From Dysgonomonas sp. PF1-14 (GTDB lineage Bacteria > Bacteroidota > Bacteroidia > Bacteroidales > Dysgonomonadaceae): a stretch of 64,000 nucleotides of DNA. A program made the translations under genes and the position numbers. Each line of letters opens with the position of its first letter. Position 1 is the stretch's first letter. The stretch spans positions 1 through 64,000 of the forward strand of contig NZ_JARXWN010000003.1 in assembly GCF_029892965.1 (NCBI RefSeq), in the 5' to 3' direction. The notes under the pieces are model-generated. The model was not told the DNA's origin and made no database searches. It saw only the letters and a program-made list of their open reading frames with translations. Below are positions 46,572 through 63,210 of this stretch, piece after piece.

Positions 46572-46603
46572 TTTGCCATATCTCGGAAATTCTGTTATTT
46601 TTG
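46572..46603 (+). promoter_or_regulatory. Promoter of the tRNA-Arg locus
   Basis: TTTG (46572-46575), exactly 20 bp of spacer, then TATTTTTG (46596-46603) form a consensus Bacteroidetes promoter. Transcription would start near 46610, about 30 nt before the 5' half tRNA at 46641. Both the half and the whole tRNA would therefore be on the same transcript. Confidence 0.65.
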
Positions 46604-46640: not shown

Positions 46641-46686
46641 GGCGCAGTAGTTCAATGGATAGAATAGAAGTTTCCTAAACCTACGA
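46641..46686 (+). pseudogene. 5' half of a tRNA-Arg(CCT) gene
   Basis: GGCGCAG (5' acceptor strand), the D-arm GTTCAATGGATAGAAT and anticodon loop TTCCTAA can be read exactly as in a tRNA-Arg. After AAAC the 3' side of the anticodon stem is wrong (ACCTA opposite GAAGT), and no T-arm or 3' acceptor strand follows. The identity breaks right after the anticodon loop. The anticodon CCT is the same as in the complete tRNA 70 bp downstream. Confidence 0.7.
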
Positions 46687-46756
46687 TGGGTACAAAGCTA
46701 CAAAAGTGTAGTGGAATAAAAAAACGATCTTTGAATCAGATGTAAAAAGCAGATAA

Positions 46757-46828
46757 GCCCCTGTAGTTCAACGGATAGAACATCGGTTTCCTAAACCGAA
46801 AATATGAGTTCGATTCTCATCGGGGGTA
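46757..46828 (+). tRNA. tRNA-Arg (anticodon CCT)
   Basis: The cloverleaf is complete: acceptor GCCCCTG with CGGGGGT (G1-U72 wobble at the end, U6-G67 inside), discriminator A. The D-arm GTTC/GAAC closes AACGGATA, and anticodon stem TCGGT/ACCGA closes loop TTCCTAA. The T-stem ATGAG/CTCAT closes TTCGATT. CCA is not encoded. It lies 86 bp upstream of the integrase gene. Confidence 0.93.
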
Positions 46829-46870
46829 CTTTTTACTTTCTTAATCTCTCCAAAATCCGCAAATAATAGC

Positions 46871-46878
46871 TACTTTTG
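46871..46878 (+). promoter_or_regulatory. Possible -7 element for the integrase gene
   Basis: TACTTTTG matches TAnnTTTG, 37 nt upstream of the integrase start. A direct repeat GTTCTACAA (twice, about 46888-46908) sits between them and could be an integrase-binding arm site. The -33 box is weak. Confidence 0.35.
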
Positions 46879-46914
46879 CAGTGATTTGTTCTACAATAGT
46901 TCTACAAAAATCTT

Positions 46915-48279
46915 ATGGCTACATTCAAAGCGGAAATTTATGCTCATCATAAAAAGAAAGATGGTACCTACAACATCAAAATAAGAGTTACCCATAATCG
47001 GCAAAAAAGGTACCTTGATACTCCTTATTATATAACTAAGGATGATATTACCCAAAAGACATTCAAAATAAAGAATCAGTATTACATTGATAAGACTGAT
47101 GAAATAATTAAAACCTATCGGAGAAAGTGTGATGATCTTGGTGTGCTCATCAAAGAGATAGATATTGATCAGGTTATATCTCTCATAACAAAGGATGAGA
47201 AAGAGGATCGGTTTGATTTGGATATAGTCGCTTATGGCAGGGAGCTTGTTCGGCAACTAAAAGCAACTGGACACAAGGGAAGTGCTTTAGCATACCAAAA
47301 CGCTATAAACAACCTGGTGAAGTTTACAGAAAGAGAAATTATAAGCATCCACGAAATCACCTCTAAATTTGTTCAGGATTGGATCCTATGGATAATAGAA
47401 CAACCACCCAGGGCAAACAGAAAAAAGGGAGAGCGTGCACAGTCTTTATATCCCAGTAATTTGCGTGCGATACACAATAAAGCAAAAGAGGAGTTCAATA
47501 ATGAGGATCTTGGAATAATCAATATACCATTATCTCCTTTCAAAAAACTCCCTAAAATACCACAAGCTAAAAAGCGTGCTCTGGATGTTGATCAGCTCAG
47601 GAGGATGATGGATCTTGATTACACCCTTATACTACAGCCAGGGAATAACAAGTTCAACCTTGCAAAAGATGTGTTCTTGTTAAGTTTTGGGCTTGTTGGT
47701 ATGAATGCAGCAGATCTATATAATTGTGATTGTTATGAGGGTGGCAGAATAACATACCAGAGAACGAAAACAAGAAATAGAAGAGCTGATAAAGCAGAAA
47801 TATCTATAAAGGTAGAGCCAGAGGTAAAGCCTTTATTTGATAAATACAGAGATCCTACTGGGGAGCGTGTGTTTTGCTTCTATAAAATGTACTCATCCAT
47901 AGATTCATTTACCTATGCCATTAATGGATTTGATAGAACCGATGAAAAAGGGAATAGGCATATAGTGGGGTTAAAAAAAGTCGGTTATTCACTTGGTATT
48001 GAAGATCTACAATTTTATGCTGCCAGGCACACATGGGCTACCATTGCTGCTAATGATGTGGGGATAGATAAATTCACGGTGCATACTGCATTAAACCATG
48101 TGGATGAACAGATGAAAGTAACTGATATGTATATCAGGAAATCCTGGGATCCGATTGATAGAGCTAACCAAAAAGTTCTGAAATTTGTGAAGTTCAAACA
48201 GGATAATGTGGAGGAACCAAAGTCTGATAATTGTTTGCTTAGGCAAAAGGTCAAGCAAATACCTAAGCAAAAAGAATGA
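46915..48279 (+). CDS. int: Tyrosine recombinase / phage integrase
   Basis: This 454-residue integrase has an N-terminal Arm-binding/SAM-like region (ATFKAEIYAHHKKKDGTYNI) and a core-binding domain (about 100-200). The C-terminal catalytic domain contains ARHTWAT (about 367-373, box II R with H), LNHVDEQM and the nucleophile Tyr in VTDMYIRKSW (about 405). The position of the first conserved Arg (box I) holds Asn instead, in GLVGMNAADLYNCD; this substitution is seen in several Bacteroidetes integrases. The gene starts 86 bp after the tRNA. Its last 45 bp contain copies of the TTTGCTTAGG repeat. Confidence 0.93.
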   Translation: MATFKAEIYAHHKKKDGTYNIKIRVTHNRQKRYLDTPYYITKDDITQKTFKIKNQYYIDKTDEIIKTYRRKCDDLGVLIKEIDIDQVISLITKDEKEDRFDLDIVAYGRELVRQLKATGHKGSALAYQNAINNLVKFTEREIISIHEITSKFVQDWILWIIEQPPRANRKKGERAQSLYPSNLRAIHNKAKEEFNNEDLGIINIPLSPFKKLPKIPQAKKRALDVDQLRRMMDLDYTLILQPGNNKFNLAKDVFLLSFGLVGMNAADLYNCDCYEGGRITYQRTKTRNRRADKAEISIKVEPEVKPLFDKYRDPTGERVFCFYKMYSSIDSFTYAINGFDRTDEKGNRHIVGLKKVGYSLGIEDLQFYAARHTWATIAANDVGIDKFTVHTALNHVDEQMKVTDMYIRKSWDPIDRANQKVLKFVKFKQDNVEEPKSDNCLLRQKVKQIPKQKE

Positions 48280-48505
48280 TTTGCTTAACCACTTGCTTAG
48301 GCAAATGAGGTTATTTTGCTTAGGCAAAATTTAGAATTTGCTTAACCATTTGCTTGTATGTTTGCCTAAGCAAAGTTTTTTCAAGCATAATCAAAGATAT
48401 GAGTATTTATCACATTTATATAATAGCCAATAAGTTACATTAAAATTATAGTGCTGAGGATTTTGGTTTTGCTTAACCATTTGCTTAACCATTTGCCTAA
48501 GCAAA
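48234..48505. repeat. Array of TTTGCYTARGCAAA inverted-repeat units
   Basis: Complete 14-bp units occur at 48234-48247, 48292-48305 (first base C), 48315-48328, 48361-48374 and 48492-48505. Three have the centre TTAG; the last two have CTAA. Partial units TTTGCTTAACC or their complement are at 48261, 48280, 48337, 48468 and 48480, with shorter ones at 48252 and 48349. Each full unit pairs TTTGC with GCAAA around a 4-nt loop. The first copies lie inside the integrase coding end, the rest in the gap between convergent genes. Spacing is irregular, so it is not a CRISPR. Confidence 0.8.
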
Positions 48506-48589
48506 AGTAAAACGGTACTATATATATGTATATATTATAATAATACTATAATATTATATAAAGAGTATATAGGGGATTATTAAGGGGAA
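48280..48589. other. Gene-free region between convergent int and repressor cluster
   Basis: These 310 bp hold most of the inverted-repeat array and then an AT-rich tail (48510-48580) of TATATA runs. I see no coding sequence and no promoter consensus. Confidence 0.6.
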
Positions 48590-48856
48590 TCATTTAAACA
48601 TCTTACCAAAACCAGTAAGAAGCCACTCAGCATTTACATTATATTCTCTCACCATTGGTATCAACCATGAGAGTTGAAACCATCCACGTCCGAGATCTTT
48701 TCTTTGAGCTACAAAATTTCTCCTGTCGATATTGTATAGTCTGCAATATGTATTAACACCCCTGATCTCCTTTTTAGCTATTATGGCATCCAGGGCAGAA
48801 TAGAAACGCTCCATTATCTGTTTCGATTCATCTGTAATACTTCTTACCGTACCCAT
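48590..48856 (-). CDS. Small phage regulator-like protein
   Basis: This 88-residue, basic, helical protein has the C-terminal VREYNVNAEWLLTGFGKMFK, a phrase common at the end of HTH repressor domains in Bacteroidetes phages (NPEWLLTGxGxM). Its N-terminal half (MERFYSALDAIIAKKEIRGV) could form an HTH. It lies one nt downstream of the 78-residue gene, in the leftward cluster with the XRE repressor. DNA binding is inferred. Confidence 0.6.
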   Translation of the reverse strand: MGTVRSITDESKQIMERFYSALDAIIAKKEIRGVNTYCRLYNIDRRNFVAQRKDLGRGWFQLSWLIPMVREYNVNAEWLLTGFGKMFK

Positions 48857-48857
48857 C

Positions 48858-49094
48858 CTAAAGCAAGTTATATTTAAGGTGGTTTATATCTTCTTTTAGG
48901 GATTCAAGCTCATCAGTTGGCTCATTGTGTACCTTAGCCTTATCTATGGCAAAATTAAGCTCCTTTTGTGCCTCTGAGACTACATTCTCATCTATTTCCT
49001 TTCCATTTATGTGATCCGAAAAGCATTTTTTATAAAGCTCGATCACAATCCTGTTATATTTTTCCATACTAAAATAACGATTGTTTAATACCAA
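48858..49094 (-). CDS. Hypothetical phage protein, 78 residues
   Basis: This small charged helical protein (MEKYNRIVIELYKKCFSDHI) has a possible coiled-coil C-terminus (DELESLKEDINHLKYNLL). It is sandwiched in the leftward repressor operon (3 nt after the XRE gene, 1 nt before the next). Start could also be the ATG for MEKYNRI at 49070. No recognised family. Confidence 0.5.
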   Translation of the reverse strand: MVLNNRYFSMEKYNRIVIELYKKCFSDHINGKEIDENVVSEAQKELNFAIDKAKVHNEPTDELESLKEDINHLKYNLL

Positions 49095-49097
49095 AAA

Positions 49098-49535
49098 CTA
49101 CACGGCATCTGCATGATCTGCATTGCTTTCCTGGTGGGCATCCGTTTTTTTCCTTTCGTCCAGAAGTGCCTCCAGTCTGCCTATCTTTCTGTTAAGCCTC
49201 TCAATTTCTTTCTCTTTCTCCTCCAAAAGAGAATAGGGTGCAATGAGTTTATCATTCATCATTTTCACTATTTGCCTGGAGAAAACATCGGCTCCTACGT
49301 GCATTACTTCCTGGGGTGTAGCCTCAGGCACTGAAATTGGATCTATTTTATCCGTATAGTATTTGGATATATTTCCAAATTTGGACTGCAATATATCCAA
49401 CTTATCAGGTGGAATTTGCCTAATTCCTCGCTCAATTCGAGAAATAAAGTTCTGACCGCACGAAAATAACTCAGCTAACTCAGATTGAGTTAAATTATTG
49501 TCAGTTCTAAAGCGTTTCAAATCAAAGGATTGCAT
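49098..49535 (-). CDS. XRE-family (CI-like) phage repressor
   Basis: This 145-residue protein has an N-terminal helix-turn-helix (RFRTDNNLTQSELAELFSCG, then QNFISRIERG; about 8-37) and a C-terminal coiled coil (EEKEKEIERLNRKIGRLEAL, about 104-123). It is transcribed divergently from the early operon, the classic repressor position. Sequences matching its likely operator (GGATATATATCC) lie in the promoter region and inside the gene. It lacks the peptidase domain of RecA-sensitive LexA/CI repressors. Confidence 0.82.
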   Translation of the reverse strand: MQSFDLKRFRTDNNLTQSELAELFSCGQNFISRIERGIRQIPPDKLDILQSKFGNISKYYTDKIDPISVPEATPQEVMHVGADVFSRQIVKMMNDKLIAPYSLLEEKEKEIERLNRKIGRLEALLDERKKTDAHQESNADHADAV

Positions 49536-49574
49536 ATCTTAAACCATTTTAATCCGAAAATATATCCAAAATAT

Positions 49575-49606
49575 ATTGTATAATCTGGATATATATCCTA
49601 TATTTG
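49575..49606 (+). promoter_or_regulatory. Early rightward promoter of the element
   Basis: The promoter has -33 ATTG (49575-49578), a 20-bp spacer and -7 TATATTTG (49599-49606). The 12-bp palindrome GGATATATATCC (49587-49598) fills the spacer, so a bound repressor would occlude it. Confidence 0.6.
49587..49598. promoter_or_regulatory. Operator palindrome in the early promoter
   Basis: This is a perfect 12-bp palindrome GGATATATATCC. A related site with one mismatch, GGATATATTTCC, lies inside the repressor gene at 49365-49376. ATATATCC half-sites are at 49391-49398 and 49560-49567. Confidence 0.6.
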
Positions 49607-49672
49607 CATCGTGAATAATTTAATTACACTACAAACATACAAAAAAAGTGTGTTTGTGAAACAATTTAAAGC

Positions 49673-49927
49673 ATGAAAAAGGATAAAATGACAGAAACAG
49701 ACTATCAGTCTTTTGCTCAGATTTACAAAGGATTGCCTGAGCGAACAGAAGTGAAAGCTCCAAAAACGGCATTTGTTGAAAGGATTGCTGAGATCACCAA
49801 AAAATCTACTAAGACAGTTCGCTGCTGGATAGCTGGTGTACAGCGACCAGATGCGTTGTGCCAAAGTTTGATTGAAAAGGAGTTAGGTGTACCTGGTGAA
49901 TATTTATTTCCAAAAACAGATGATTAA
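49673..49927 (+). CDS. Small HTH-like early protein (Cro position)
   Basis: This 84-residue protein is the first gene rightward of the switch. The segment FVERIAEITKKSTKTVRCWI followed by AGVQRPDALCQSLIEKELGV reads like an HTH with a recognition helix (KTVRCWI). Start may be at 49673 or the ATG for MTETDY at 49688. Its position suggests a Cro-type or CII-type regulator; function is inferred. Confidence 0.65.
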   Translation: MKKDKMTETDYQSFAQIYKGLPERTEVKAPKTAFVERIAEITKKSTKTVRCWIAGVQRPDALCQSLIEKELGVPGEYLFPKTDD

Positions 49928-49928
49928 A

Positions 49929-50480
49929 ATGAAACCTGTTGAGTTTTACACCACACCAGAGGGAGAGGTTACTATGAAACCTCTTGGAGAGGCTGAGAGA
50001 CAGCTGAAAGAAACGGATAGGGAATTTATCCAGGCATTCCTGGAGATCCTAAGGGAGTTCTATCCTCATTCTTTTGAGGCTCTAATGGAGGTGTATTCTA
50101 AAAGCGATGGAAATAAAAATTACAGGGATTACTTGGCAGTAAGGCGGTTTATCAAGTGCAATTTTGGGCTATATGATAATATGATTGATTTAGATGATTC
50201 CTGGAACTTCAATTTTGAATTTGTAGGATGCCCACTGAGGGGTGAGTGTAAATATGACAAAATTATATGTGCTCCTAAATTCGATTCAAAGTTATCAGAT
50301 AGGGAGCTTGAAGTAATGAAAATGCTCTATAAGGGCGTTAGCGATTCCAATGTAGCCGATAGGCTATTTATCTCTCTTAATACCGTGAATAATCACAGGA
50401 AAAATAGCTTTAAAAAGCTGGGTGTACACTCAATGCCTGAGTTTATGCGGTATGCTATGACAAATAATTTATTCAAATAA
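49929..50480 (+). CDS. LuxR-type HTH regulator carried by the element
   Basis: This 183-residue protein has a C-terminal LuxR/GerE HTH (LSDRELEVMKMLYKGVSDSN, then VADRLFISLNTVNNHRKNSF; about 118-160). The middle has a short Cys motif CPLRGECKYDKIICAPKF (about 98-115). The N-terminal half is helical and no known sensor domain is evident. I chose the ATG at 49929 (MKPVEFYTT), just after the preceding stop codon. An upstream in-frame ATG at 49920 overlaps the preceding gene. It likely regulates element or host transcription. Confidence 0.75.
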   Translation: MKPVEFYTTPEGEVTMKPLGEAERQLKETDREFIQAFLEILREFYPHSFEALMEVYSKSDGNKNYRDYLAVRRFIKCNFGLYDNMIDLDDSWNFNFEFVGCPLRGECKYDKIICAPKFDSKLSDRELEVMKMLYKGVSDSNVADRLFISLNTVNNHRKNSFKKLGVHSMPEFMRYAMTNNLFK

Positions 50481-50496
50481 CTAATGCAACACAGTT

Positions 50497-50730
50497 ATGA
50501 CTTCGGAAACATTATCTAACCTAATTTTTGGCTCCATTTGGTGCGTGTTATGCACCTGTAGTCTTATCGGAGCAATTTTCTACAATGCACATCACCAGTT
50601 TGTTTTGGCTGGTTTATCGGGATCAATGGCTTATGTGAGCTATGTTGATGATTACCTATCTGAAAGTGTAAAACATTACTTCTGTAAAGTTCGGAGAGCA
50701 AAAAGAATACAGAAACTAAAACGTATGTGA
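50497..50730 (+). CDS. Small membrane protein of the element
   Basis: This 77-residue protein has two hydrophobic helices (LIFGSIWCVLCTCSLIGAIF, about 8-27; HQFVLAGLSGSMAYVSYV) and a basic C-terminus (VRRAKRIQKLKRM). Phage early genes often contain such proteins of unknown role. It is 16 nt after the LuxR gene and 3 nt before the next. Confidence 0.5.
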   Translation: MTSETLSNLIFGSIWCVLCTCSLIGAIFYNAHHQFVLAGLSGSMAYVSYVDDYLSESVKHYFCKVRRAKRIQKLKRM

Positions 50731-50733
50731 TTT

Positions 50734-51018
50734 ATGATCCAGTTAGAACTCTATGAGCTTAAAAATCTATGCAAGGATATGGCTGAGCTTGGAGCTGCTA
50801 ATTATGCTAAAATGCTCTACCCTGCAAAAGATATTATCTCACAAAGAGAGGCTTTTAGGCAGTTTGGGGAGGCTCGTGTAAAGGATTGGATTCGTAGGGG
50901 GTTAATATCTGGTACCAGGAATGGATCCAGCGAAAACTCAAAGATTCTATACTCCAGAGCAGATCTCCTGGCTGTTGAGAAATCAGAGAAATTAAATTTT
51001 ATAATCAAAAGTAAATGA
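50734..51018 (+). CDS. Excisionase/HTH_17-like DNA-binding protein
   Basis: This 94-residue protein contains a helix-turn-helix-17-like segment (SQREAFRQFGEARVKDWIRR, then GLISGTRNGSSENSKILYSR; about 36-75), as in excisionases and phage regulators. It could be the excisionase for the integrase or an early regulator. Its end overlaps the ATPase gene by 4 nt. Confidence 0.6.
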   Translation: MIQLELYELKNLCKDMAELGAANYAKMLYPAKDIISQREAFRQFGEARVKDWIRRGLISGTRNGSSENSKILYSRADLLAVEKSEKLNFIIKSK

Positions 51019-53024
51019 GGAAAATGAGACAGATTTATTTAAAAAAGTTGATACTTAGAAACTTCAAAGGTATCAAAGATCTTACCATTGATTTTACCGA
51101 ACAGGAGACTGTGATTAGCGGTGATAATGGAACAGGTAAGACTACAGTTTTTGATTCATTCCTTTGGTTGCTATTCGGAAAAGATAGCACAAACAGAGCA
51201 GATGGGAATGGTGGTTTTAACATCAAAACCTTGGATGATAACGGTAAGCCGATTTTGAATCTGGAGCACGTTGTAATAGCTACTCTGTTGGTTGATGGTA
51301 AAGAGGTAACTCTACAGCGTTCTTACTTGGAAAAATGGGGTACTGGTGTTAATGCTGGGCAGCTTAAAAATCATTACACTGAGTTCTATTTGAATGGTGT
51401 AAAGCTGGGAACTAAAAAGGAATATGATGCTGAGGTATCGGCAATTCTACCAGAGGATGTTTTCCGTATGGTTACAAATCCTTTCTATTTCCCTACCCTG
51501 CCAGCAGCTACTCAGAAAAATATGCTCATGGATATGGCTGGCAATGTAACGGATCAGGATGTGGCAGCCCTAAAGCCTGAATACCTGGAGCTGTTAAGTC
51601 AAATCACAGGTAGAACTTTGGAGCAATTTAAGAAAGAAACTGCTGCCAAAAAGAAAGCTATACAGGATGAGCTGAAAGAACTCCCTGCTCGTATCGACAC
51701 AGCTACTCAAATGATGCCAGAGGCTGAAAATTGGAGTGAGTTGGAAAAAGAACTCAAAGCAAAAAAAGAATCCCTACAAAGCATAGAGGAGCAAATCACC
51801 GACAAATCAAAACAGGTAGAGAGTGCCTATAAAGCCAAAAGTGATATTCAGGCTAAGATCGGACAAAAACGCTTAGAGAGATCTAAAAAAGAGAGTGAAA
51901 TCCGTGAGAAAGCAAATACAGCGAACAATGCTACACGCTCTGAAATAAAGGAGCTGGAGTATAAAATCAAATCAACAGAGGATGATATAAGCAGAAAGAG
52001 TAGCCGTGTATTTGCTATTGATTCAGAGATCTCAACTCTCAATACAGAGTTAGATACATTACGTGGTGAGTATCGTGCTATCAACTCTAAGCAGTTGGAG
52101 TATCCAGCTGGTGCTTTTGCTTGTCCTACTTGTAGCCGTCCGTTGGAGGCTGAGGATATTGAGACTAAACAGAATGAACTTTTATCTAACTTCAATCTGG
52201 AGAAATCGAAACAGCTACAGGATAACAAAAACAAGGGAGTAACGAGATCGGCTAAGGTGAAAGAACTGCAAAAAGAGCGTGAGGATGTTCTGGCTGAAAC
52301 TAAGCAACTGGAGGCTGATCTGGAAAACCTTAATGGTCAAAAGAAATACAAAGAGGAAAATCTACCAGATGCTCAGGATCCTCAAAAACTTATTGAGGTA
52401 GATGCTGACTGGATCCGTTTGGGAAATGAAATTACCGAACTTGAAAACCAGTTGAGTGTAGAGGCTCCAGCTGTGGACACATCCGAACTACAAGATGGCA
52501 AACGCCTATTATCCGATAATATAGCAAGCCTTAACAAACGCCTGGCTCAAAGAGACACTATAGAGCGTGCTCAAAAGCTAATCCAGGAGTATGAGGATAA
52601 AAAGCTATCCAATAACGATGCTCTGGCTCAACTTGAAAAAACAGAGCTTACCATACTTGAATTTCAGAAAGCTAAGGATAATGAGCTGATGAAACGAATA
52701 AATGGAATGTTTACTATGGTTTCTTTCTCTTTCGTGGATGAGCAGCTGAATGGCAATGAAAAAATAACCTGTGTATGTACCGTTGATGGTGTGCCTTTCC
52801 CCGATCTGAACAATGCCAGAAAAATAAACGCTGGGCTTGATATTATCAATGCTATATGCAACTCAAAGGGAATATCTGCACCTATTTTCATTGACAATAG
52901 AGAAAGCGTTAATGAGCTTATCCCTACTGTTTCTCAGGTTATCAATTTGACGGTTAGCAAGCATCCTAAGCTGATGATCAAGATGCCAGGTGATGAACCG
53001 ATGGAAATGTATCAGGAGTTATAA
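51015..53024 (+). CDS. Rad50/SbcC-like ATPase with zinc hook
   Basis: This 669-residue SMC-superfamily protein has Walker A GDNGTGKTT (36-44) with an N-terminal strand typical of RecF/SbcC. It has long coiled-coil segments (about 210-340 and 380-560) and a central zinc-hook pair CPTC in FACPTCSRPLEAEDIE (about 370-373). The C-terminal part (NARKINAGLDIINAICNSKG; SAPIFIDNRESVNEL) supplies the second ATPase half, with a degenerate Walker B. Similar ATPases occur in Bacteroides phages ahead of RecT. No SbcD gene is adjacent; the nuclease partner may be the MBL-fold protein at 53981. Confidence 0.83.
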   Translation: MRKMRQIYLKKLILRNFKGIKDLTIDFTEQETVISGDNGTGKTTVFDSFLWLLFGKDSTNRADGNGGFNIKTLDDNGKPILNLEHVVIATLLVDGKEVTLQRSYLEKWGTGVNAGQLKNHYTEFYLNGVKLGTKKEYDAEVSAILPEDVFRMVTNPFYFPTLPAATQKNMLMDMAGNVTDQDVAALKPEYLELLSQITGRTLEQFKKETAAKKKAIQDELKELPARIDTATQMMPEAENWSELEKELKAKKESLQSIEEQITDKSKQVESAYKAKSDIQAKIGQKRLERSKKESEIREKANTANNATRSEIKELEYKIKSTEDDISRKSSRVFAIDSEISTLNTELDTLRGEYRAINSKQLEYPAGAFACPTCSRPLEAEDIETKQNELLSNFNLEKSKQLQDNKNKGVTRSAKVKELQKEREDVLAETKQLEADLENLNGQKKYKEENLPDAQDPQKLIEVDADWIRLGNEITELENQLSVEAPAVDTSELQDGKRLLSDNIASLNKRLAQRDTIERAQKLIQEYEDKKLSNNDALAQLEKTELTILEFQKAKDNELMKRINGMFTMVSFSFVDEQLNGNEKITCVCTVDGVPFPDLNNARKINAGLDIINAICNSKGISAPIFIDNRESVNELIPTVSQVINLTVSKHPKLMIKMPGDEPMEMYQEL

Positions 53025-53042
53025 TCAACTAAAATAATTAAT

Positions 53043-53969
53043 ATGACACAACAAGCAGTTAAAGGCACAGGATCTAATGTGCCAGCACAAACTAAGAAAA
53101 TAGATGTGCTAAAGAATATGCTGAATGCTCCCTCTGTTATGGAGCAGTTTCAAAATGCTCTCTCTAAGAGTGCTCCAACATTTGTAGCCTCTGTGATTGA
53201 TCTGTATAATGGAGATTCCAATCTCCAGATGTGTGAGCCTAAGGCGGTGGTAATGGAAGCTCTGAAAGCAGCTGTACTGAAATTGCCGATCAATAAAGCT
53301 CTGGGATATGCTTTTATCATTCCTTTCAACAATAGTGTAAAGGATGAAAAAGGTAACTGGACTAAAAAGATGATGCCTACTTTCCAAATGGGTTACAAAG
53401 GCTACATCCAGCTGGCAATGCGAACAGGTCAATACAAAACGATCAATGCAGATGTGGTGTATGAGGGAGAGCTTAGAAAGGTAAACAAGCTCACTGGAGA
53501 GATCGCTTTTGATGGTGAGAAAACATCCGATAAAGTGGTAGGTTATTTCTGCTACTTCGAGCTTATGAACGGCTTTTCAAAAACACTCTACATGACAGTA
53601 GAGCAAATGGCTGATCATGCAAAAAGATACTCAAAAGGGCTTAAAAAAGAGACTACAGTAGAGAGCTTGATGAATCTGGCTAATCTGCCAGTGGCAACCG
53701 ATAGCAAAACTGTAGGATGGATGGGTAATTTTCATGGTATGGCTGTAAAAACCGTTATCCGAAATTTACTAAGTAAATACGGCTATCTCTCTGTAGAAAT
53801 GCAAGAGGCAATACAAAATGACACAGAGGGAGATACTGATGTGCGTGATTCTCTTGTAGAAAAGAATGGCAATATTCAGACTTTTGAGATCAGTGATACT
53901 CATTATGAGGATGTAACCGAGGCAGAAAATCAACCCAAATCACCAGAGGAGGTAGATCCAGGGTATTAA
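53043..53969 (+). CDS. recT: RecT-family single-strand annealing protein
   Basis: This 308-residue protein matches RecT. KALGYAFIIPFNNSVKDEKG, FQMGYKGYIQLAMRTGQYKT, YFELMNGFSKTLYMTVEQMA and a C-terminal acidic tail are typical. RecT anneals single strands during phage recombination, normally with a 5'-3' exonuclease. No RecE or lambda-exo homologue is adjacent. The ATPase upstream and the MBL hydrolase downstream fill that position. Confidence 0.93.
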   Translation: MTQQAVKGTGSNVPAQTKKIDVLKNMLNAPSVMEQFQNALSKSAPTFVASVIDLYNGDSNLQMCEPKAVVMEALKAAVLKLPINKALGYAFIIPFNNSVKDEKGNWTKKMMPTFQMGYKGYIQLAMRTGQYKTINADVVYEGELRKVNKLTGEIAFDGEKTSDKVVGYFCYFELMNGFSKTLYMTVEQMADHAKRYSKGLKKETTVESLMNLANLPVATDSKTVGWMGNFHGMAVKTVIRNLLSKYGYLSVEMQEAIQNDTEGDTDVRDSLVEKNGNIQTFEISDTHYEDVTEAENQPKSPEEVDPGY

Positions 53970-53980
53970 TACACGAAATT

Positions 53981-54709
53981 ATGGAATTGAAAGTATTAGG
54001 TAGCTCATCAAGCGGTAACTGCTACATTCTGGACAATGGGAATGAGGCTCTGATAATTGAGGCTGGGATCCGATTTATGGAGGTAAAAAAGGCTTTGGAT
54101 TTTCAGTTACGCAAAGTTGTGGGCTGCCTAATCACCCACCAGCACAACGATCATGCTAAGTATATCAAAAACATGGTAGATACAGGCTTTTATGTACTGG
54201 CTCTCCCAGAGGTTCTGACTGCAAAAGGTGTGAGTGGATCCAGGGTGAGATCGTTGGAACTTGGTAAGGGATACAAATTCGGCAATTTCAAAGTAGCTCC
54301 TTTTGCTGCGTGCCATGATGTTCCCTGCGTTGGTTATCTGATCGATCATCCTGCCAGTGGCAGAATATTATTCCTTACTGATAGCTGTATGTGTGAGTAC
54401 ACTTTCCCAGGGCTTAATCACATATTGATTGAGTGTAATTATTCTGACAGGAAACTTATTGAGAGTATTAATGCTGGCATTACTCTCCCGATTCAAAGAA
54501 CTCGCTTACTGACTTCACACATGGAGCTGGAGACTTGCAAGGGGATCCTTTCCGCAAATGATATTTCAAATGTGAGTAATGTAGTTCTGTTGCACCTCTC
54601 TAAAGATAATGGGGATGAACCACGATTTATATCTGAGGTACAAAGGGCTACTGGTAAGCTGGTATATATCGCAAAACCAGGTTTAACAATTCAATTAGAT
54701 AGATTATGA
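53981..54709 (+). CDS. MBL-fold metallo-hydrolase (YycJ/WalJ-like)
   Basis: This 242-residue protein has the metallo-beta-lactamase motif HQHNDH (about 52-57), a further His in AACHDVPCVGY, Asp in LTDSC and a late His in LLHLSKDNG, all usual zinc ligands. The start VLGSSSSGNCYIL resembles YycJ/WalJ, a predicted exonuclease group. In this context, 11 nt after recT, a nuclease for recombination is more likely than a beta-lactamase. Confidence 0.82.
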   Translation: MELKVLGSSSSGNCYILDNGNEALIIEAGIRFMEVKKALDFQLRKVVGCLITHQHNDHAKYIKNMVDTGFYVLALPEVLTAKGVSGSRVRSLELGKGYKFGNFKVAPFAACHDVPCVGYLIDHPASGRILFLTDSCMCEYTFPGLNHILIECNYSDRKLIESINAGITLPIQRTRLLTSHMELETCKGILSANDISNVSNVVLLHLSKDNGDEPRFISEVQRATGKLVYIAKPGLTIQLDRL

Positions 54710-55068
54710 TAGCAGGATTTACAGAGCAAACAAAACCACTATCATCTTATGAAAGTGATACGTTGCTCCCCTTGATCGTTCAGGGGCTTCACAGCAAAGT
54801 AGGAAAAGAGAAAGCTATTACAAACCAGCAGATCTGCACGGCTCTTAAAAAGCAAGGATATAAGCTGGATAATGCACGGCTGAGAAAAATAATAAACCAT
54901 ATCAGGACAAACAACCTGGTTATAGGTTTAATCGCTACCAGTGATGGCTATTACATAGCTGAGGACAAAAAAGAGCTGGAGGTTTATGTGGGTAGTTTGA
55001 TGGGTAGAGAAAATGCCATTCGTGTTGTAAGACAAAGTTTACAAAGCCAGATAGCACTGTATGAGTAA
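54706..55068 (+). CDS. Winged-helix-like phage protein
   Basis: This 120-residue protein overlaps the MBL gene by 4 nt. TNQQICTALKKQGYKLDNAR followed by LRKIINHIRTNNLVIGLI looks like a winged-helix with a beta-hairpin (SDGYYIAED). Function unknown; possibly DNA binding in the recombination module. Confidence 0.55.
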   Translation: MIAGFTEQTKPLSSYESDTLLPLIVQGLHSKVGKEKAITNQQICTALKKQGYKLDNARLRKIINHIRTNNLVIGLIATSDGYYIAEDKKELEVYVGSLMGRENAIRVVRQSLQSQIALYE

Positions 55069-55501
55069 GAAAGTTCACATAGAGAAAAAGAACGGTTTAT
55101 TTAACCTCAAACCCATATACGGATTAATGAACTCTGTTCTGGATGGGATTTATCGCTTTGAGATGAAAAAAGTAAGAAAGCCCAGATCGAATGATCAGAA
55201 TGGATGGTTATGGGGGTGTATTTATCCTATGCTATTGGATGCTTTGCTTAATGAGGGGTGGGAATTTACCTCCTGTGAGCAGGTACATGAGTTCTTTAAG
55301 TCTCAAATGACAGCGGATAAGGTAGTGAATAAACACACTGGGGAGATAATAACATTCCCAGGATCTACTGCAACGATGGATACACTAACTTTTTCTACCT
55401 ATTGTGAAAAGCTCAGAGAGTATGCACTGGAGTATCTTAATCTGGAAATACCAGATCCAGATCCAAACTGGAGGCAGTCCGATGAAAATAATACCGAATA
55501 A
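55061..55501 (+). CDS. NinB-like phage recombination-associated protein
   Basis: In this 146-residue protein KPRSNDQNGWLWGCIYPMLL (about 40-59) resembles the RSxxQNxxxWG signature of NinB/Orf-type recombination mediators and related phage proteins. The rest (FFKSQMTADKVVNKHTGEII; TFSTYCEKLREYALEYLNLE) resembles many Bacteroidetes phage proteins of the same class. It starts 8 nt before the preceding stop codon. Confidence 0.55.
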   Translation: MSKKVHIEKKNGLFNLKPIYGLMNSVLDGIYRFEMKKVRKPRSNDQNGWLWGCIYPMLLDALLNEGWEFTSCEQVHEFFKSQMTADKVVNKHTGEIITFPGSTATMDTLTFSTYCEKLREYALEYLNLEIPDPDPNWRQSDENNTE

Positions 55502-55643
55502 CATAGTGTAAGATCTCATTAGGCTGTTACCAGTGCTAATTGAAAACATCCCTCCAGGTAGAAGTACCAGGGTGGAAAATGCCATAAGACTAACAAAAAT
55601 AATTATCAAACGCTTAAAAAATTTGAAAGATGAGCAAAGTTGA
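55482..55643 (+). pseudogene. Small phage gene interrupted by an in-frame TAA
   Basis: From the ATG at 55482, overlapping the end of the preceding gene, nine codons (MKIIPNNIV) are followed by TAA (55509-55511). In the same frame the sequence then reads DLIRLLPVLIENIPPGRSTR and VENAIRLTKIIIKRLKNL to a TGA at 55641. The downstream part is uninterrupted and has an internal GTG (PVLIEN). It is either a nonsense-mutated 53-residue gene or it starts at that GTG. Confidence 0.4.
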
Positions 55644-56196
55644 AATTAAAAAAGAAAATGTAGATGCTGCCTATAAGGTAGCTGATGAGAATGTAAAGAA
55701 AGTTTTGAACGCTCTGTTCGGCAAAGAACGCAAAAAGCCTACACTGGATGATCATACAACCATTCAGAGTTATGAGGATGCCTGTGAAGCTCTGGGAGAG
55801 CCTCAGGAGGTATTTATGGAGGGAATCCCTCCTCACATTGTAGCTCTTATGAAGTTAGAGACTATCAGCCGTGCTTTATGGGGTAGAACCTTTCAGCCGA
55901 AACCAGATGCTGAGGGTAAAGAGATCTACTGGTGGGTATGGTGGGCTTTATACACCCAGTCAGAGATTGATAATATGGATGAGGATGATCGTGGTGCCCT
56001 GTTGTCTGCGTATGCGGCGACTGGGGCGAGTGCTGGGTTCGGTTTCCTGGGCACGGGTAATCGCTCCTCGCACTCGGCTGCGAACTTTGGGTTCCGCTTG
56101 TGCCAAGAAACGGCTGAAAAGGCACGGTATTTTGGACGGACATTCAACCGATTATGGGCTGAATATCTGGCTTTTAATTTCACCGTGGAAATATAA
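55630..56196 (+). CDS. Hypothetical phage protein, 188 residues
   Basis: The N-terminal region resembles short coiled-coil or helix segments (ADENVKKVLNALFGKERKKP), followed by a Trp-rich C-terminus (GKEIYWWVWWALYTQSEIDN). The tail sequence (FGFLGTGNRSSHSAANFGFR, FNRLWAEYLAF) resembles a type common in Bacteroides phages. I cannot name a function. Confidence 0.55.
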   Translation: MSKVEIKKENVDAAYKVADENVKKVLNALFGKERKKPTLDDHTTIQSYEDACEALGEPQEVFMEGIPPHIVALMKLETISRALWGRTFQPKPDAEGKEIYWWVWWALYTQSEIDNMDEDDRGALLSAYAATGASAGFGFLGTGNRSSHSAANFGFRLCQETAEKARYFGRTFNRLWAEYLAFNFTVEI

Positions 56197-56224
56197 TATC
56201 ACTAACAATTAATAATCATTCAAG

Positions 56225-56674
56225 ATGAAAAATGAAAAGAAAGGCATGAGCGACATAATGTTAGCTGATGTGCCTATTGAAAAACGTGCTCAAATTCTGA
56301 GAGATAGCTGTGATCAGATTGAGGAAAAGCATTACACCCGAAAGTTTGAACAGGCAGAAATCAATGAAAGGCGTGAGGAGCTTGCTGAGGTATCTATTCA
56401 GATCAACGGCTTGCATCAAGAATTGAAAGAGATAAATGCCGACTTCAAGGGCAGAATTAAGCCTAAAGAGGAACGTAGAGGTAGGATCCTGGATGAGTTG
56501 AAATCTGGAGGAGAGTATGTAAAATCGGAATGCTACAAGTTTATAGATGCTGATCTGGGCAAAGTAGCATGGTACACTCCTGATGGTTATAAGCTGGAGG
56601 AAAGAGACATTAACCAGGAGGAGAAACAACGGACGACATTCCAGGCGTTCAGACGAACTGGAACAGATAATTAA
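56225..56674 (+). CDS. Phage coiled-coil protein, 149 residues
   Basis: This charged helical protein has a likely coiled coil (INERREELAEVSIQINGLHQ, about 56-75). A C-terminal domain follows (CYKFIDADLGKVAWYTPDGY). It lies 28 nt after the previous gene and before the 252-residue gene, in the single-strand DNA handling block. No recognised family. Confidence 0.5.
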   Translation: MKNEKKGMSDIMLADVPIEKRAQILRDSCDQIEEKHYTRKFEQAEINERREELAEVSIQINGLHQELKEINADFKGRIKPKEERRGRILDELKSGGEYVKSECYKFIDADLGKVAWYTPDGYKLEERDINQEEKQRTTFQAFRRTGTDN

Positions 56675-56701
56675 GTTATTAACAATTAATTCATTTACAA
56701 G

Positions 56702-57460
56702 ATGGAAAAAGAAGAAAAAATCCAGATCCATATCCATGAGGGAGTGGATGTTTCAAAACCGATTGAGGTTATTATTAGAGAGGGTGCTGCTGCTAAAGCC
56801 ACTGAGGTGTTACCGACAAAAGCTCCTGAGAGTATCAGTTTGGATGGAGTAATCTCAACTCCTTTTGATTGGTTGGAGAAAAGAGTAGAAACAATCGAAC
56901 AAAAACAGGCTAATATCAAAGTGGATCGTGAGGCTATGACTATTGCCCTCACTATCAACGAAACCGATTCCTACAACAAAAATACTATTACTGGCAAAGT
57001 CCAGCTCTCAGAGGTATTTGAAAAGTTCGGTATCAACGATGAGAGAAAAGCCTGGGCACCTGGAAAATTAGGGCAGTTTTTACGCCTTAATCGTGGTGTG
57101 TTTGAGGATAAAGAGAAATGTATGGTTATGGTTTCTAACCTCAAAAACTTTACAGCAAACGCTAAATCAGAGATCCAAAAGCAACGAGATCCATCTGGCT
57201 CTATGGCTGAGGTGTACAAGTGCCAGGTTGAAAGCAATTTGCCAAAATCATTCTCTGTATGCCTTGCTGTGTTCAAAGGAACTCCAAAGGAGCGTATTGA
57301 GGTAGAGTTCGACCACTACCTGAGTGATGGTGAGGTTTTCTTACAGCTTGTTTCTCCTGGAGCAAATGAGATGGTAGAGGCTTACCGTGATTCCTGTATT
57401 GACCAGGTACTGGATAAAATCAAAGAGATTGCTCCTGATATTGCAATTCTGGAAGTGTAA
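56702..57460 (+). CDS. Phage protein, possibly DUF2303-like
   Basis: The N-terminal part of this 252-residue protein is disordered and acidic. The core has FDWLEKRVETIEQKQANIKV and KLGQFLRLNRGVFEDKEKCM, then FSVCLAVFKGTPKERIEVEF. The LGQFLRLNR segment resembles the DUF2303 group. Function unknown; the position between recombination and replication genes suggests single-strand DNA or replication support. Confidence 0.5.
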   Translation: MEKEEKIQIHIHEGVDVSKPIEVIIREGAAAKATEVLPTKAPESISLDGVISTPFDWLEKRVETIEQKQANIKVDREAMTIALTINETDSYNKNTITGKVQLSEVFEKFGINDERKAWAPGKLGQFLRLNRGVFEDKEKCMVMVSNLKNFTANAKSEIQKQRDPSGSMAEVYKCQVESNLPKSFSVCLAVFKGTPKERIEVEFDHYLSDGEVFLQLVSPGANEMVEAYRDSCIDQVLDKIKEIAPDIAILEV

Positions 57461-57509
57461 AACAATTTGGGAGAGGGTACTTAGTGCCCCTCCCTTAAAT
57501 CTCTAATAT

Positions 57510-58316
57510 ATGGCTAAAGATAAAAACCCGATGCCCTTTTTTACAAGAGACTGGCTGAGCTGTGCTGAGGTAAAGTTCCTATCTCCTGATATTCGTGGGC
57601 TATGGTTCGATTTGATCTGCTATATGTGGGAGTGTGTTGAGCGTGGTGTGATGGTAAAGCCTAACCACCAGCCGTACACCAAGGAGGAAATAACTGCAAT
57701 GATCGGAACAGATTGTTCTGGCTCCTATGGATGGCTGGATGTTTTACTTGAAAATGGTGTGTGCTCTATTAGAAGTGATGGAGCCATATATAGTAGGCGA
57801 ATGGTTAAAGATGAGGAAATCAGGGAAAAACGGAGGATCGCTGGTAAAAAAGGTGGAGATGTTACAAAGGCTAAAGTATTCACTAAGCAGGGCACCGAAA
57901 CTAATTTACCTGGTGATGATGCCACACCACCTCCACCACTAACACCAGAACAGCAGGAAAAGGCTGAAAAAGCCAAAAAATACAAATATGCTGAGTTTGT
58001 CTCTCTTACCAGGGATGAATACGCTAAACTATGTGCTGAATATTCTGAGGAATCAGCAAAAGCAATGATAGGCATTCTTAATAGCTACAAAGGCTCTAAA
58101 GGGAAAAGATATAAGTCAGACTATCATACTATACGAGGATGGGTAAAAGATAAATATTACGAAGATCAACAGAAAAATGGAATTGAACGGAAACAAGCTA
58201 ACGGAGGAAATGGCTTTGCGAATAATCAAGGAACACAGGGAGGCTCAATATTTAACCAGGGAGAAAGCCCAGAGGGAGGTTCTGAGCCACAGAAGGATTA
58301 TTCTAAAAGGTTCTAA
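57510..58316 (+). CDS. Phage replication initiator-like protein
   Basis: This 268-residue protein has an N-terminal domain with FFTRDWLSCAEVKFLSPDIR and LWFDLICYMWECVERGVMV. These read like the Lin1244/Lin1753-type N-terminus of phage replisome organisers, followed by a basic hinge (REKRRIAGKKGGDVTKAKVF). The central part has DEYAKLCAEYSEESAKAMIG and YHTIRGWVKDKYYEDQQKN, a typical C-terminal DnaD/helicase-loading tail. The last 140 nt overlap the DnaC-like gene in another frame. Confidence 0.72.
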   Translation: MAKDKNPMPFFTRDWLSCAEVKFLSPDIRGLWFDLICYMWECVERGVMVKPNHQPYTKEEITAMIGTDCSGSYGWLDVLLENGVCSIRSDGAIYSRRMVKDEEIREKRRIAGKKGGDVTKAKVFTKQGTETNLPGDDATPPPPLTPEQQEKAEKAKKYKYAEFVSLTRDEYAKLCAEYSEESAKAMIGILNSYKGSKGKRYKSDYHTIRGWVKDKYYEDQQKNGIERKQANGGNGFANNQGTQGGSIFNQGESPEGGSEPQKDYSKRF

Positions 58317-58971
58317 ATACGATTTAGAGGATCCTGGGCAGTTTTCTCTCCATGCCTCTATGATCAAGGAAATAGGCAATAACATTATGCTACGTGAATT
58401 TTCCTCCTTTGAGGTGGATGAGCATAATTCAAAGGTTCTCAGGTTCCTTACTTACTATTTCAATGATTGTAAGCTGGCTGAGGAGGTGTTTCCTGATGAA
58501 AATTACAAGATCCATAAAAACATTCTGCTGGTTGGAGAGCCTGGAACAGGTAAAACAATGCTAATGCAAGTGTTCTCTGAATATCTCAAAAGGATAGGCG
58601 GTGAAAACTTCTTTTGGAATCTATCGACTACCCAGATGATGAATTATTATAAAATTAACGGACACATAGACCGATACACTTATAACGAGTGTGCCTCTGA
58701 GGGTAAATTTGATGGAAACCCGATAAATGTATGCTTGAATGACGTGGGGCTGCTTACCGAAAATCAAAAGAATTATGGTACCGATCTCAGCTTAATCATG
58801 GATGAGTTCCTGTTTGCCAGATACGAAATCTACCAGAACTCATATAAGAAATATCATTTAACAAGCAATTTGAGCGTGGATGAGTTTGTAAAACGCTTTG
58901 AGGGTAGGCTTGTAGATCGGTTTAAGAGCTTCAATGTAATATCGTTAAACGGAAAAAGTAGAAGAAAATGA
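58177..58971 (+). CDS. DnaC-like AAA+ helicase loader
   Basis: This 264-residue ATPase has Walker A GEPGTGKT (about 119-126), Walker B VCLNDVG and a sensor-1-like YHLTSNLSVDEF. C-terminal RFEGRLVDRFKSFNVISL is a box VII/sensor-2-type ending. It is related to DnaC/IstB proteins that load the replicative helicase, consistent with the adjacent initiator gene. Start at 58177 implies a 140-nt overlap with the initiator. A later ATG at 58360 is possible but would remove a plausible helical N-terminus. Confidence 0.83.
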   Translation: MELNGNKLTEEMALRIIKEHREAQYLTREKAQREVLSHRRIILKGSKYDLEDPGQFSLHASMIKEIGNNIMLREFSSFEVDEHNSKVLRFLTYYFNDCKLAEEVFPDENYKIHKNILLVGEPGTGKTMLMQVFSEYLKRIGGENFFWNLSTTQMMNYYKINGHIDRYTYNECASEGKFDGNPINVCLNDVGLLTENQKNYGTDLSLIMDEFLFARYEIYQNSYKKYHLTSNLSVDEFVKRFEGRLVDRFKSFNVISLNGKSRRK

Positions 58972-59435
58972 AAGTATTAAAAAAAGCAATACTCCCTTTA
59001 TCCAAGGCTTTCCCAGCTACTCATAGCAGAGCTGGAGAGCTAACCGATTTTGAGGGTAAAATCGAAAGAAACGAAAAGATCCATACAATCAGATATGATG
59101 CCAAAAGTGTATGGGAAAAACGCTTTGCTAAAATCAAGGCAGGGCTTATGTATTTGGCAATGAAAGAGTGGACTGGCAGACCATACAACTCAGAAATGAG
59201 AGATCTGTTTCAGAGAACCAGAGAGGACGGGATTGGACTGCAAACAATAGAAATGGTGTATGGTACCGATGATGCCTATCCCAAAGTTTGGGTAGATGGT
59301 AAAGAGGTAGATATACAGGAGGTGGCAAAGAATGATGGTTTGAGTGTTCCTGATTTTATTGATTGGTTCTTTGGGAAAGGCAAAGAAAACACTTTTGAGG
59401 GTAAGATTATTCATTTTACAAAATTCAGATATTGA
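58968..59435 (+). CDS. Phage hypothetical protein (ASCH-like pattern)
   Basis: In this 155-residue protein FPATHSRAGELTDFEGKIER and KIHTIRYDAKSVWEKRF, then KAGLMYLAMKEWTGRPYNSE, form a motif series seen in many Bacteroides phages. The layout (HTIR, KIxxG, W-G-PY) resembles ASCH RNA-binding domains. Overlaps DnaC by 4 nt. Function not established. Confidence 0.55.
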   Translation: MKVLKKAILPLSKAFPATHSRAGELTDFEGKIERNEKIHTIRYDAKSVWEKRFAKIKAGLMYLAMKEWTGRPYNSEMRDLFQRTREDGIGLQTIEMVYGTDDAYPKVWVDGKEVDIQEVAKNDGLSVPDFIDWFFGKGKENTFEGKIIHFTKFRY

Positions 59436-59436
59436 T

Positions 59437-60252
59437 ATGAAAACTAATGCAACAAAGAGAACGGATATTTTTCTTATAGATCCTCGTAACATTGTCGTTA
59501 TGAGTGATTTTAATGTTCGTAGAGATTTTGATTTAGAGGAACTTAAAGAACAAATAAAGGCTAAGGGTGTGCTCAATCCCATCACCGTTAAACCTTTCAA
59601 AGATGAAAATGGGAATGAAAAGTATGAGCTGGTGGATGGTGAGAGGCGTTTACGTGCTACAATGCTGGCTATCTCAGAGGGTGCTGATATTCCCTGGATA
59701 AAAGCACTCAAAGCTCCTAAGGATGCAAGCTATGAGGATCTACTGATAGAGCAGATGATGCGAAATGAGGGCAAACGATTCTCTGAATATGAATGTGGGA
59801 TAATGTTCAAACGGTTCAAGGATGAGTTTGGATATACACAGGCTGAGATCGCTGAAAAGTTCAAAAAATCACCAGCTTATATTAGCAAATGCCTTGCTTT
59901 CATGGATCTGCCAAAAGAGATCCAGGAGAGGATTATTAGAAATGAAATTTCTGCTAAAGCTGCTAAAGATATAGTGGCTAATTATGATACAGAGGTGGAG
60001 CAGGTAGAAGCTACCAAACAAGCCGTAAAAATAGCCCAGGATCAAGGGAAAAAGACTGTTACCAATAAAGAGATCAACCTGGCTATGAAAGATGCTAAGG
60101 AGGCTAAAATAATAGCTGAATCACTAAGGAAAATATGGGCATATCTGGATGGAGAGGAGGAGGTGAATATCCTCCAGCTGGCAAAACTGCTGGATAAGAC
60201 TGAGAGCCTAAGATACGCAATTAAAGAACTAAAAAAAGGATCTAATGAATAA
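59437..60252 (+). CDS. ParB/Srx-fold DNA-binding protein
   Basis: This 271-residue protein has an N-terminal ParB/Srx domain: NVRRDFDLEELKEQIKAKGV (residues about 24-43), NPITVKPF and DGERRLRATM (about 67-76). An HTH domain follows: FGYTQAEIAEKFKKSPAYIS (about 129-148), then a helical C-terminus. The ATG at 59437 begins cleanly at the domain; a longer frame from 59344 would fuse 31 hydrophobic residues that belong to another reading frame. A phage-borne ParB-like protein could act as nuclease-like regulator or partition factor. Confidence 0.82.
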   Translation: MKTNATKRTDIFLIDPRNIVVMSDFNVRRDFDLEELKEQIKAKGVLNPITVKPFKDENGNEKYELVDGERRLRATMLAISEGADIPWIKALKAPKDASYEDLLIEQMMRNEGKRFSEYECGIMFKRFKDEFGYTQAEIAEKFKKSPAYISKCLAFMDLPKEIQERIIRNEISAKAAKDIVANYDTEVEQVEATKQAVKIAQDQGKKTVTNKEINLAMKDAKEAKIIAESLRKIWAYLDGEEEVNILQLAKLLDKTESLRYAIKELKKGSNE

Positions 60253-61291: not shown

Positions 61292-61296
61292 TTGAT

Positions 61297-61521
61297 ATGG
61301 CTAAGCTAACATATACAATAGCAACAAAAATATTTAGCGACACTAATTCCGAAAACTTGGAACAGTCAATAAACGGCTGGATAAAAGAAAATAATGTGAA
61401 AGTGTTGGATATTCAGGTAGGCGTTTATCCTATGTTCGATATGTATCAGGATCGCCAGCCCACAATTTGTAACCAGTGGGAGAAATATATAGCAACAATC
61501 ATTTATAACAAATTACCATGA
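61297..61521 (+). CDS. Hypothetical phage protein, 74 residues
   Basis: This small soluble protein (LTYTIATKIFSDTNSENLEQ at the start, then VKVLDIQVGVYPMFDMYQD) has likely beta-alpha topology. It overlaps the next gene by 4 nt. No recognised family. Confidence 0.45.
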   Translation: MAKLTYTIATKIFSDTNSENLEQSINGWIKENNVKVLDIQVGVYPMFDMYQDRQPTICNQWEKYIATIIYNKLP

Positions 61522-62207: not shown

Positions 62208-62210
62208 GAT

Positions 62211-62396
62211 ATGGCTATCAATAAAGATTACGGATACTGTACTGGCATGGATTGCCCGATACGTGAGGAATGTAAGAGATATAGTTTAGAGGCTATAAAT
62301 TCACCAGAGCCTCTTTGGTGGACTGATGGCTATTATGATGAGGAAAAAAGAAATTGTGAATTTAAAGATGATAAAAATGAAACCAGTAAAATTTAA
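62211..62396 (+). CDS. Small Cys-rich phage protein
   Basis: The N-terminal stretch of this 61-residue protein, YCTGMDCPIREECKRYS, carries four Cys, and a fifth Cys follows in RNCEFKDD. The CPIREECKRY phrase resembles CPLRGECKYD in the LuxR-type regulator at 49929. A zinc knuckle is possible. It starts 3 nt after the DUF5131 stop codon. Confidence 0.5.
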   Translation: MAINKDYGYCTGMDCPIREECKRYSLEAINSPEPLWWTDGYYDEEKRNCEFKDDKNETSKI

Positions 62397-62628: not shown

Positions 62629-62635
62629 CAAATTT

Positions 62636-63205: not shown

Positions 63206-63210
63206 AAACA

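Follow-up and report, generated by a model that had tools for sequence, protein, structure and literature searches.

A Dysgonomonas prophage that splits the host tRNA-Arg(CCT) gene and carries a proposed replacement

The window, a stretch of 64,000 nucleotides that represents bases 1-64000 of contig C3 (434,463 bases) of the 4.58 Mb draft genome of Dysgonomonas sp. PF1-14 (G000), contains half of a tRNA-Arg(CCT) gene, a complete tRNA-Arg(CCT) gene and an integrase gene, one after the other. This locus raises the question of whether the half gene is the remnant of a host gene cut by integration, and whether the complete gene is brought by the integrated element as its replacement.

Junctions of the split host gene

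All of the features described below for the left junction are located on the + strand. The promoter of the host tRNA-Arg gene, TTTG-N20-TATTTTTG, is located at 46572-46603 and is assigned by comparison with TTTG, about 19-20 nt, TAnnTTTG, which we take to be the Bacteroidota-type promoter consensus. It is followed by the 5' half of the host tRNA-Arg(CCT) gene (46641-46680), which is broken in the anticodon loop and is identified by the ARAGORN reading of the joined halves and by comparison with empty sites. This half is unlikely to have arisen by chance, because it is identical over all 40 of its nucleotides in 18 of the 21 same-genus loci that bear the gene. Its last 23 bases (46658-46680) represent the attL core of element 1 and are common to C3:103817-103839, which is their only other site in the genome when up to three mismatches are allowed. 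A 13 bp part of this core, AAGTTTCCTAAAC, is also found at the outer right junction, at C3:162513. RNA folding of the half-tRNA region yields nothing remarkable.

The phage leader (46681-46756) extends from the core to the phage tRNA, ends with TAA, and contains no TANNTTTG, which we take to be the Bacteroidota -7 element. The complete phage-borne tRNA-Arg(CCT) gene, the proposed replacement, is located at 46757-46829; it is detected by ARAGORN, has a homologue in phage Versailles, and scores 68.6 bits with the Rfam tRNA model (cut-off 29). A direct repeat, GTTCTACAATAGTTCTACA, read from the sequence as a putative arm-type integrase site (46888-46906), precedes the gene for the 454 aa tyrosine integrase of element 1 (46915-48279; PF13102, PF17293 and phrog_1). 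The left part of prophage element 1 occupies 46681-64000; the element continues to C3:103830, where element 2 (C3:103830-162513) comes next. The preliminary description, made from the letters of the window, had placed the promoter, the half tRNA-Arg, the whole tRNA-Arg(CCT) and the integrase at these same positions, and sequence, ARAGORN and Rfam agree with it, but the spacing from the half to the whole tRNA is 76 bases, not seventy. Numerous short repeats akin to TTTGCTTAACCATTTGCTTAGGCAAA are present 3' of the integrase gene, in window 48260-48520.

The 3' half of the host tRNA is located at C3:162523-162555, and the right junction (C3:162513-162555) reads AAGTTTCCTAAAC and then TTTAGATCGGGGTTCGATTCCCCGCTGTGCTAC. 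ARAGORN detects a 73-nt tRNA-Arg(CCT) when the left and right halves are joined, and detects no tRNA in the left half alone, in agreement with the earlier statement that the 3' flank joined to this half does not rebuild one. The proposal that integration interrupted the host tRNA-Arg(CCT) gene at the anticodon loop is thus borne out, since the far 3' half completes the left half. The right junction had been predicted to consist of TTTCCTAAAC and a tRNA 3' half capable of pairing with the left half in both the acceptor strand and the anticodon stem, and this is what is found. The acceptor strand itself was predicted as CTGCGCC but is CTGTGCT; it nevertheless pairs with GGCGCAG, via two G-U pairs.

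The preliminary description had assumed that a single element is inserted in the tRNA gene. The insertion stands, but two elements are present. Following the core at C3:103817-103839 are 88 bases, a second complete tRNA-Arg(CCT) gene (C3:103928-104000; 57.8 bits with Rfam) and a second integrase gene (C3:104132-105484; PF13102 above and PF17293 just below the cut-off; phrog_1), with no host sequence. Because a second core, tRNA and integrase are found at C3:103830 and the host 3' half at C3:162513-162555, two prophages are arranged in tandem within one tRNA gene, element 1 of 57.2 kb and element 2 of 58.7 kb. Therefore, the first right junction (C3:103830) opens into element 2, and the host 3' half is located 115.8 kb downstream. 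The integrases of the two elements belong to different lineages, and the site has been occupied by two phages successively. The sequence is compatible with element 2 being the first to arrive, with element 1 then inserting at its left junction, and also with element 1 being the first, with element 2 then inserting at its right junction. The virus IMGVR_UViG_2940244548_000002 (L063, L092 and L032) is this tandem, entered in a public virus collection as one virus of 114,945 bp, and corresponds to two prophages.

Related phage, independent lysogens and empty sites

The suggestion that the intact tRNA belongs to the element is confirmed by Bacteroides phage Versailles (ON453897; 58,097 bp), whose own record has a tRNA-Arg(CCT) between core and integrase. 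This linear record begins just past the core, with the tRNA-Arg at 93-164 and the integrase at 272, and the order in it is core, tRNA-Arg(CCT), integrase. The integrases of Versailles and element 1 share 60.6% identity. Of the 97 annotated features of Versailles, 25 proteins were compared; element 1 has matches to 22 of them and element 2 to 14. The matches are collinear with the elements and include the portal, major head, tape measure, tail, reverse transcriptase and endolysin proteins; the large terminase has a match in element 1 only, none being found in element 2 at E<=1e-4. Versailles-like temperate phages therefore have head, tail, reverse transcriptase and lysis genes in common, and in the same order, with elements 1 and 2. 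These phages are presumably siphophages with a diversity-generating retroelement. Versailles is listed as an induced prophage from a mouse gut community (PMC10197239).

The split layout was also searched for as a pattern. In the order it matches 5 of 393 genomes, two of which (G000 and G160) are real on inspection; in the family to which G510 belongs it matches 7 of 399, four of which (G510, G780, G863 and G685) are real. The other three matches of each scan (3/5 and 3/7) were discarded on inspection as chance matches. A pattern with too narrow a gap gave 0 matches in one scan and 1/393 in another. Both junctions are found in G780 (on a 4.0 Mb contig), G685 and G863, at distances of 57.9, 57.5 and 51.0 kb respectively. 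The joined halves form a tRNA-Arg(CCT) in each of these three genomes, and ARAGORN detects none at attL or attR alone. With G000 included, attB lies within the host tRNA gene in four genomes, in which both halves are located and joined, and no tRNA is present at the junctions alone apart from one poor fold at attR of G000. The shared core is 23 bp for element 1, 13 bp for element 2, and 16, 11 and 16 bp for the other three lysogens, and every one of these cores (11 to 23 bp) contains GTTTCCTAAAC. At both junctions of G000, G780, G685 and G863, the block of identity stops at AAAC, 33 nt short of the tRNA end; identity of the att sites from the crossover to the tRNA 3' end, the mark of classical tRNA integration with 3'-end rebuilding, is found in none of the four. 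The pattern of an intact tRNA detects nine tRNA-Arg(CCT) copies in the eight lysogen genomes (G000, G780, G863, G685, G160, G473, G509 and G510), and all of them are phage-borne, in 8/8 genomes. No orphan 3' half is found in the MAG lysogens G160, G473, G509, G510 and G511, which are all on short or broken contigs.

The poor fold at the outer right junction of G000 bears on the possibility that a working tRNA is rebuilt there from the right end of the phage and the host 3' half. ARAGORN alone draws a 70-nt tRNA-like fold at this junction, the right end of element 2. However, its acceptor stem contains two mismatches, its D arm is poor, and it is absent from the list of the Rfam search of the genome, while the corresponding junctions of G780, G685 and G863 yield no ARAGORN tRNA. 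A working tRNA at this junction is therefore highly improbable.

The preliminary description had expected element-free relatives to have one intact tRNA-Arg(CCT) with the 5' half seen in the window, and the empty sites agree with this. Among 24 other genomes of the genus, 20 have a single intact tRNA-Arg(CCT) in the stretch compared. Of the 21 same-genus loci, 20 agree in the left flank and 6 in the right flank, within 1.5 kb. The four genomes without an intact host copy are G022, in which the contig ends, G016, which has a phage-type tRNA, and G012 and G014, which give no match and are 51% and 82% complete. In no element-free genome of the genus do the half and the intact tRNA occur together, an arrangement that would have spoken against the proposed cut; the nearest case is G016, whose element is decayed.

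These results bear on the alternative, also raised in the preliminary description, that ordinary integration occurred at the 3' end of the intact tRNA and that the half tRNA is an old relic. Relatives of the integrase do stand beside intact tRNAs in the classical manner, at L024 (Thr), L090 (Arg CCT), L097 and L099 (Gly) and L109 (His). However, the host 3' half stands precisely at the far junction, where it supplies what the left half lacks; the right junctions were inspected for a duplicate of the intact tRNA's 3' end and have none; the intact tRNA lies within the Versailles record; and the empty sites contain the host tRNA only. This alternative is contradicted by the far junction and the empty sites and is hardly credible.

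Across the family, the 5' pattern of tRNA-Arg(CCT) is found in 90 of 101 genomes. It occurs once in 88 of these, three times in G000 and twice in G473. With a strict pattern, 59 of the family's 62 good genomes retain tRNA-Arg(CCT), which suggests that this tRNA matters. Apart from CCT, the tRNA-Arg species of G000 are TCT, ACG and CCG (40 ARAGORN tRNAs at 41 other Rfam places), and no further tRNA-Arg(CCT) is detected by Rfam and ARAGORN beyond the host halves and the phage copies.

Two observations concern phage-type tRNAs at sites without a complete phage. At the locus in contig C222 of G016 (L220 and L051, same genus), the tRNA half is decayed, the phage-type tRNA-Arg(CCT) is intact, and the integrase frame is broken after ~20 codons. 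The phage-type tRNA is the sole match of the tRNA pattern in the genome, and it looks like a phage tRNA retained following loss of the phage. Nine genomes of a sister genus (G438, G441, G448, G451, G456, G459, G460, G468 and G474) have a tRNA-Arg(CCT) with a CGG stem, apparently in its native place. Phage-like arm repeats follow this tRNA in L205 and L213, which have no phage, and are absent from most others (neighbours L206-L212); no host half remains beside it. It may be either a phage relic or a native variant.

Layout of attP, integrase relatives and the proposed mechanism

A scan of viral contigs with the integrase alignment gives 64 loci, three of which were dropped (two are the genome of the window and one is a very short match). 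Among the 61 loci examined, in which near-identical contigs are counted, 46 have at least 60 nt of upstream sequence; the other 15 are shorter and uninformative. A tRNA-Arg(CCT) is located 84-112 bp upstream of the integrase at 22 of the 46 loci, and a tRNA-Arg(CCG) 121-183 bp upstream at five. Four loci have a classical tRNA (L090, Arg-CCT; L097 and L099, Gly; L109, His), L091 has an attP bearing the 3' half of tRNA-Arg(CCT), and 14 have no tRNA. When 16 of the 22 CCT loci and the five CCG loci are inspected singly, a second core is found further upstream in 20 of 21; it is decayed in L076. A split tRNA-Arg(CCG) half is located ahead of the whole one in L093 and L098. Phage tRNA and split gene always agree in isotype, both being CCT or both CCG, and the phage tRNA and host half have the same orientation throughout. 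No orphan right junction is found in viral contigs among the matches listed (199 stretches read with right-end patterns that are too loose). L126 and L127 have a tRNA-Arg(CCT) without this integrase layout.

The tree of 44 integrases (L027, 123 aa, is omitted; 16 of the 44 are unlabelled, mostly because they lack upstream sequence or an adjacent tRNA) places element 1 within the main CCT clade and element 2 with the CCG clade (support 91/93, not starred). The classical L090 and L091, which use the same tRNA and rebuild its 3' half, and L024 (Thr) are located just outside the main CCT clade. The replacing layout thus occurs at two separate positions in the tree, between which classical relatives branch; it may have a single origin followed by losses.

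The left arm, consisting of core, leader and tRNA 5' half, is present twice in succession in L075:1-513, as if a second copy were inserted in the tRNA of the first. In L066 and L076, phage-type arm repeats precede a complete-looking tRNA 5' half upstream of the core, and the right end of the phage may itself bear a tRNA 5' half. The anticodon stem of the phage tRNA reads CGG, versus AAG, in element 1 and others. Recoding as a protection against attack by the integrase was considered and rejected, because the insertion in L075 used a phage-type 5' half, and also because host genes with the stems GTGGT and TACGG were struck in G160 and G685.

Repeats of the form GTTCTACnATAGTTCTAC directly precede the integrase gene (46888-46906) and recur at the right end, ahead of the core (C3:103762-103779); they are also found in Versailles and L080. 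The integrase has an arm-DNA-binding domain, and these repeats therefore probably serve as its arm sites. The tRNA gene is thus flanked by the core on one side and by the putative arm on the other. The leader from core to tRNA is 68-101 bp long in 26 leaders, with groups near 68, 78, 89 and 101, and ends with TAA immediately before the tRNA in all 26. The lengths fit a period of 10-11 bp (p about 5e-5 against two simple nulls, for 17 hand-chosen, related leaders), as if helical phase were kept in the integration complex.

Of 12 left junctions, 9 have TANNTTTG in the 60 nt that precede the host half, whereas the 26 leaders all lack it (Fisher p 1.3e-6, for sequences that are related). L066, L075 and L076, in which phage-like or repeated sequence precedes the half, and L093 and L107, which have no upstream sequence, are excluded from the 12 host promoters. 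By eye, TANNTTTG is also present upstream of the host half in G780, G863 and G685. Its absence from 26 leaders is by itself no depletion, the expected number being 0.77 and the probability of zero 0.45. The natural reading is that the host promoter, which is still ahead of the broken half, would transcribe the phage tRNA. A segment conserved at the right end (C3:103660-103760, Versailles, L080, L112 and L479) contains TANNTTTG, ACCGAT-N-ATCGGTGTTGCATT and a hairpin, before the right arm sites. It is present in five of the six right ends compared, element 2 lacking it, and matches nothing in Rfam near the gathering score; it is possibly a small RNA with a terminator.

The split host gene, both junctions in four genomes, the empty sites, the phage-borne tRNA and the tandem are directly visible in the sequences. 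We propose, with a probability of about 0.87, that they represent an integration system of temperate phages that destroys the target tRNA gene and supplies its replacement. The integrase would recombine the short core GTTTCCTAAAC within the only tRNA-Arg(CCT) gene of the host, at the anticodon loop. Because the phage core is not accompanied by a matching 3' half, the gene is rebuilt at neither junction. A complete tRNA-Arg(CCT) gene would be brought inside attP, between the core and the putative arm sites, some 85-110 bp before the integrase gene. After integration, the phage tRNA would follow the broken half at a distance of 70-100 bp, in the same orientation and behind the host tRNA promoter. 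We infer that it substitutes for the lost tRNA in translation and that lysogeny depends on it. A further step is tentative: the phage tRNA may be promoterless and switched on by integration, and would then be silent in the free phage and expressed only in correctly integrated cells. If so, insertion and rescue are one reaction, and the lysogen is permanently tied to the phage tRNA.

The phage tRNA might instead serve lytic growth or act against tRNA-cutting defences, its link with integration being incidental. The split would then be tolerated because tRNA-Arg(TCT), which G000 possesses, might read AGG, so that the broken gene may be non-essential; phage tRNAs are treated as a counter-defence in PMC10865867. 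This explanation is unlikely, because the isotype always equals that of the split gene and the tRNA lies between core and integrase, because L090, L091 and L097, relatives that rebuild the gene, have no second tRNA in the upstream sequence examined, and because the retention of tRNA-Arg(CCT) in the family noted above suggests its importance. Replacement of the destroyed gene, which remains the preferred reading, accounts for exactly one tRNA per phage and for its isotype.

Comparison with known integration systems

Classical tRNA-integrating elements have integrases of the same family, and L090 and L091 have even the same target tRNA. The classical attP bears the tRNA 3' half, so that the host gene is rebuilt at attL, which is not so in the Dysgonomonas elements. 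Prophage finders that rely on a rebuilt tRNA at one end should therefore be used with caution, and the layout of core, tRNA, arm repeats and integrase can be searched for. The system also offers a possible route by which a host tRNA gene is displaced by a phage one.

tRNA-dependent lysogeny has been described and tested in the actinobacteriophages Fionnbharth, LeBron, Gaia and others (PMC10865867). Common to that system and the present one are a tyrosine integrase, a short core in a host tRNA gene, the lack of a functional tRNA at the junctions, a phage tRNA of the same isotype, and related integrases that rebuild the gene. The isotypes are Arg-CCT and Arg-CCG here and Lys-TTT, Ile2-CAT and Leu-CAA in the actinobacteriophage table; the phylum and the integrase lineages differ, and a tandem double lysogen is found here. 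The Fionnbharth tRNA overlaps another gene and has a strong promoter of its own, whereas here the tRNA is inside attP and has no recognisable promoter. The requirement for the tRNA was tested in the actinobacteriophages, whereas here it is proposed from sequence. The Lj965 prophage of Lactobacillus johnsonii and the Lo5R7ANS-like prophages of Sinorhizobium are reported, in papers that cite them, to leave the tRNA unrebuilt or to replace the host tRNA with that of the phage (PMC10865867, PMC12429752, PMC11476347); they concern other phyla and other tRNAs.

A mention of Bacteroides in PMC10865867 concerns CTnDOT and NBU1, and searches of open-access papers show no report of tRNA-dependent lysogeny in Bacteroidota. 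This 2024 paper, which names tRNA-dependent lysogeny, closes by asking how frequent it is outside the phages of Actinobacteria. The present results bear on this question with an integration system of a Bacteroidota phage family, including one member reported as induced in the mouse gut, and with four sequenced examples in which both junctions are found. The principle is already known; what is new is the phylum, the isotypes, the tandem, and a tRNA in attP that has no recognisable promoter and is placed behind the host tRNA promoter.
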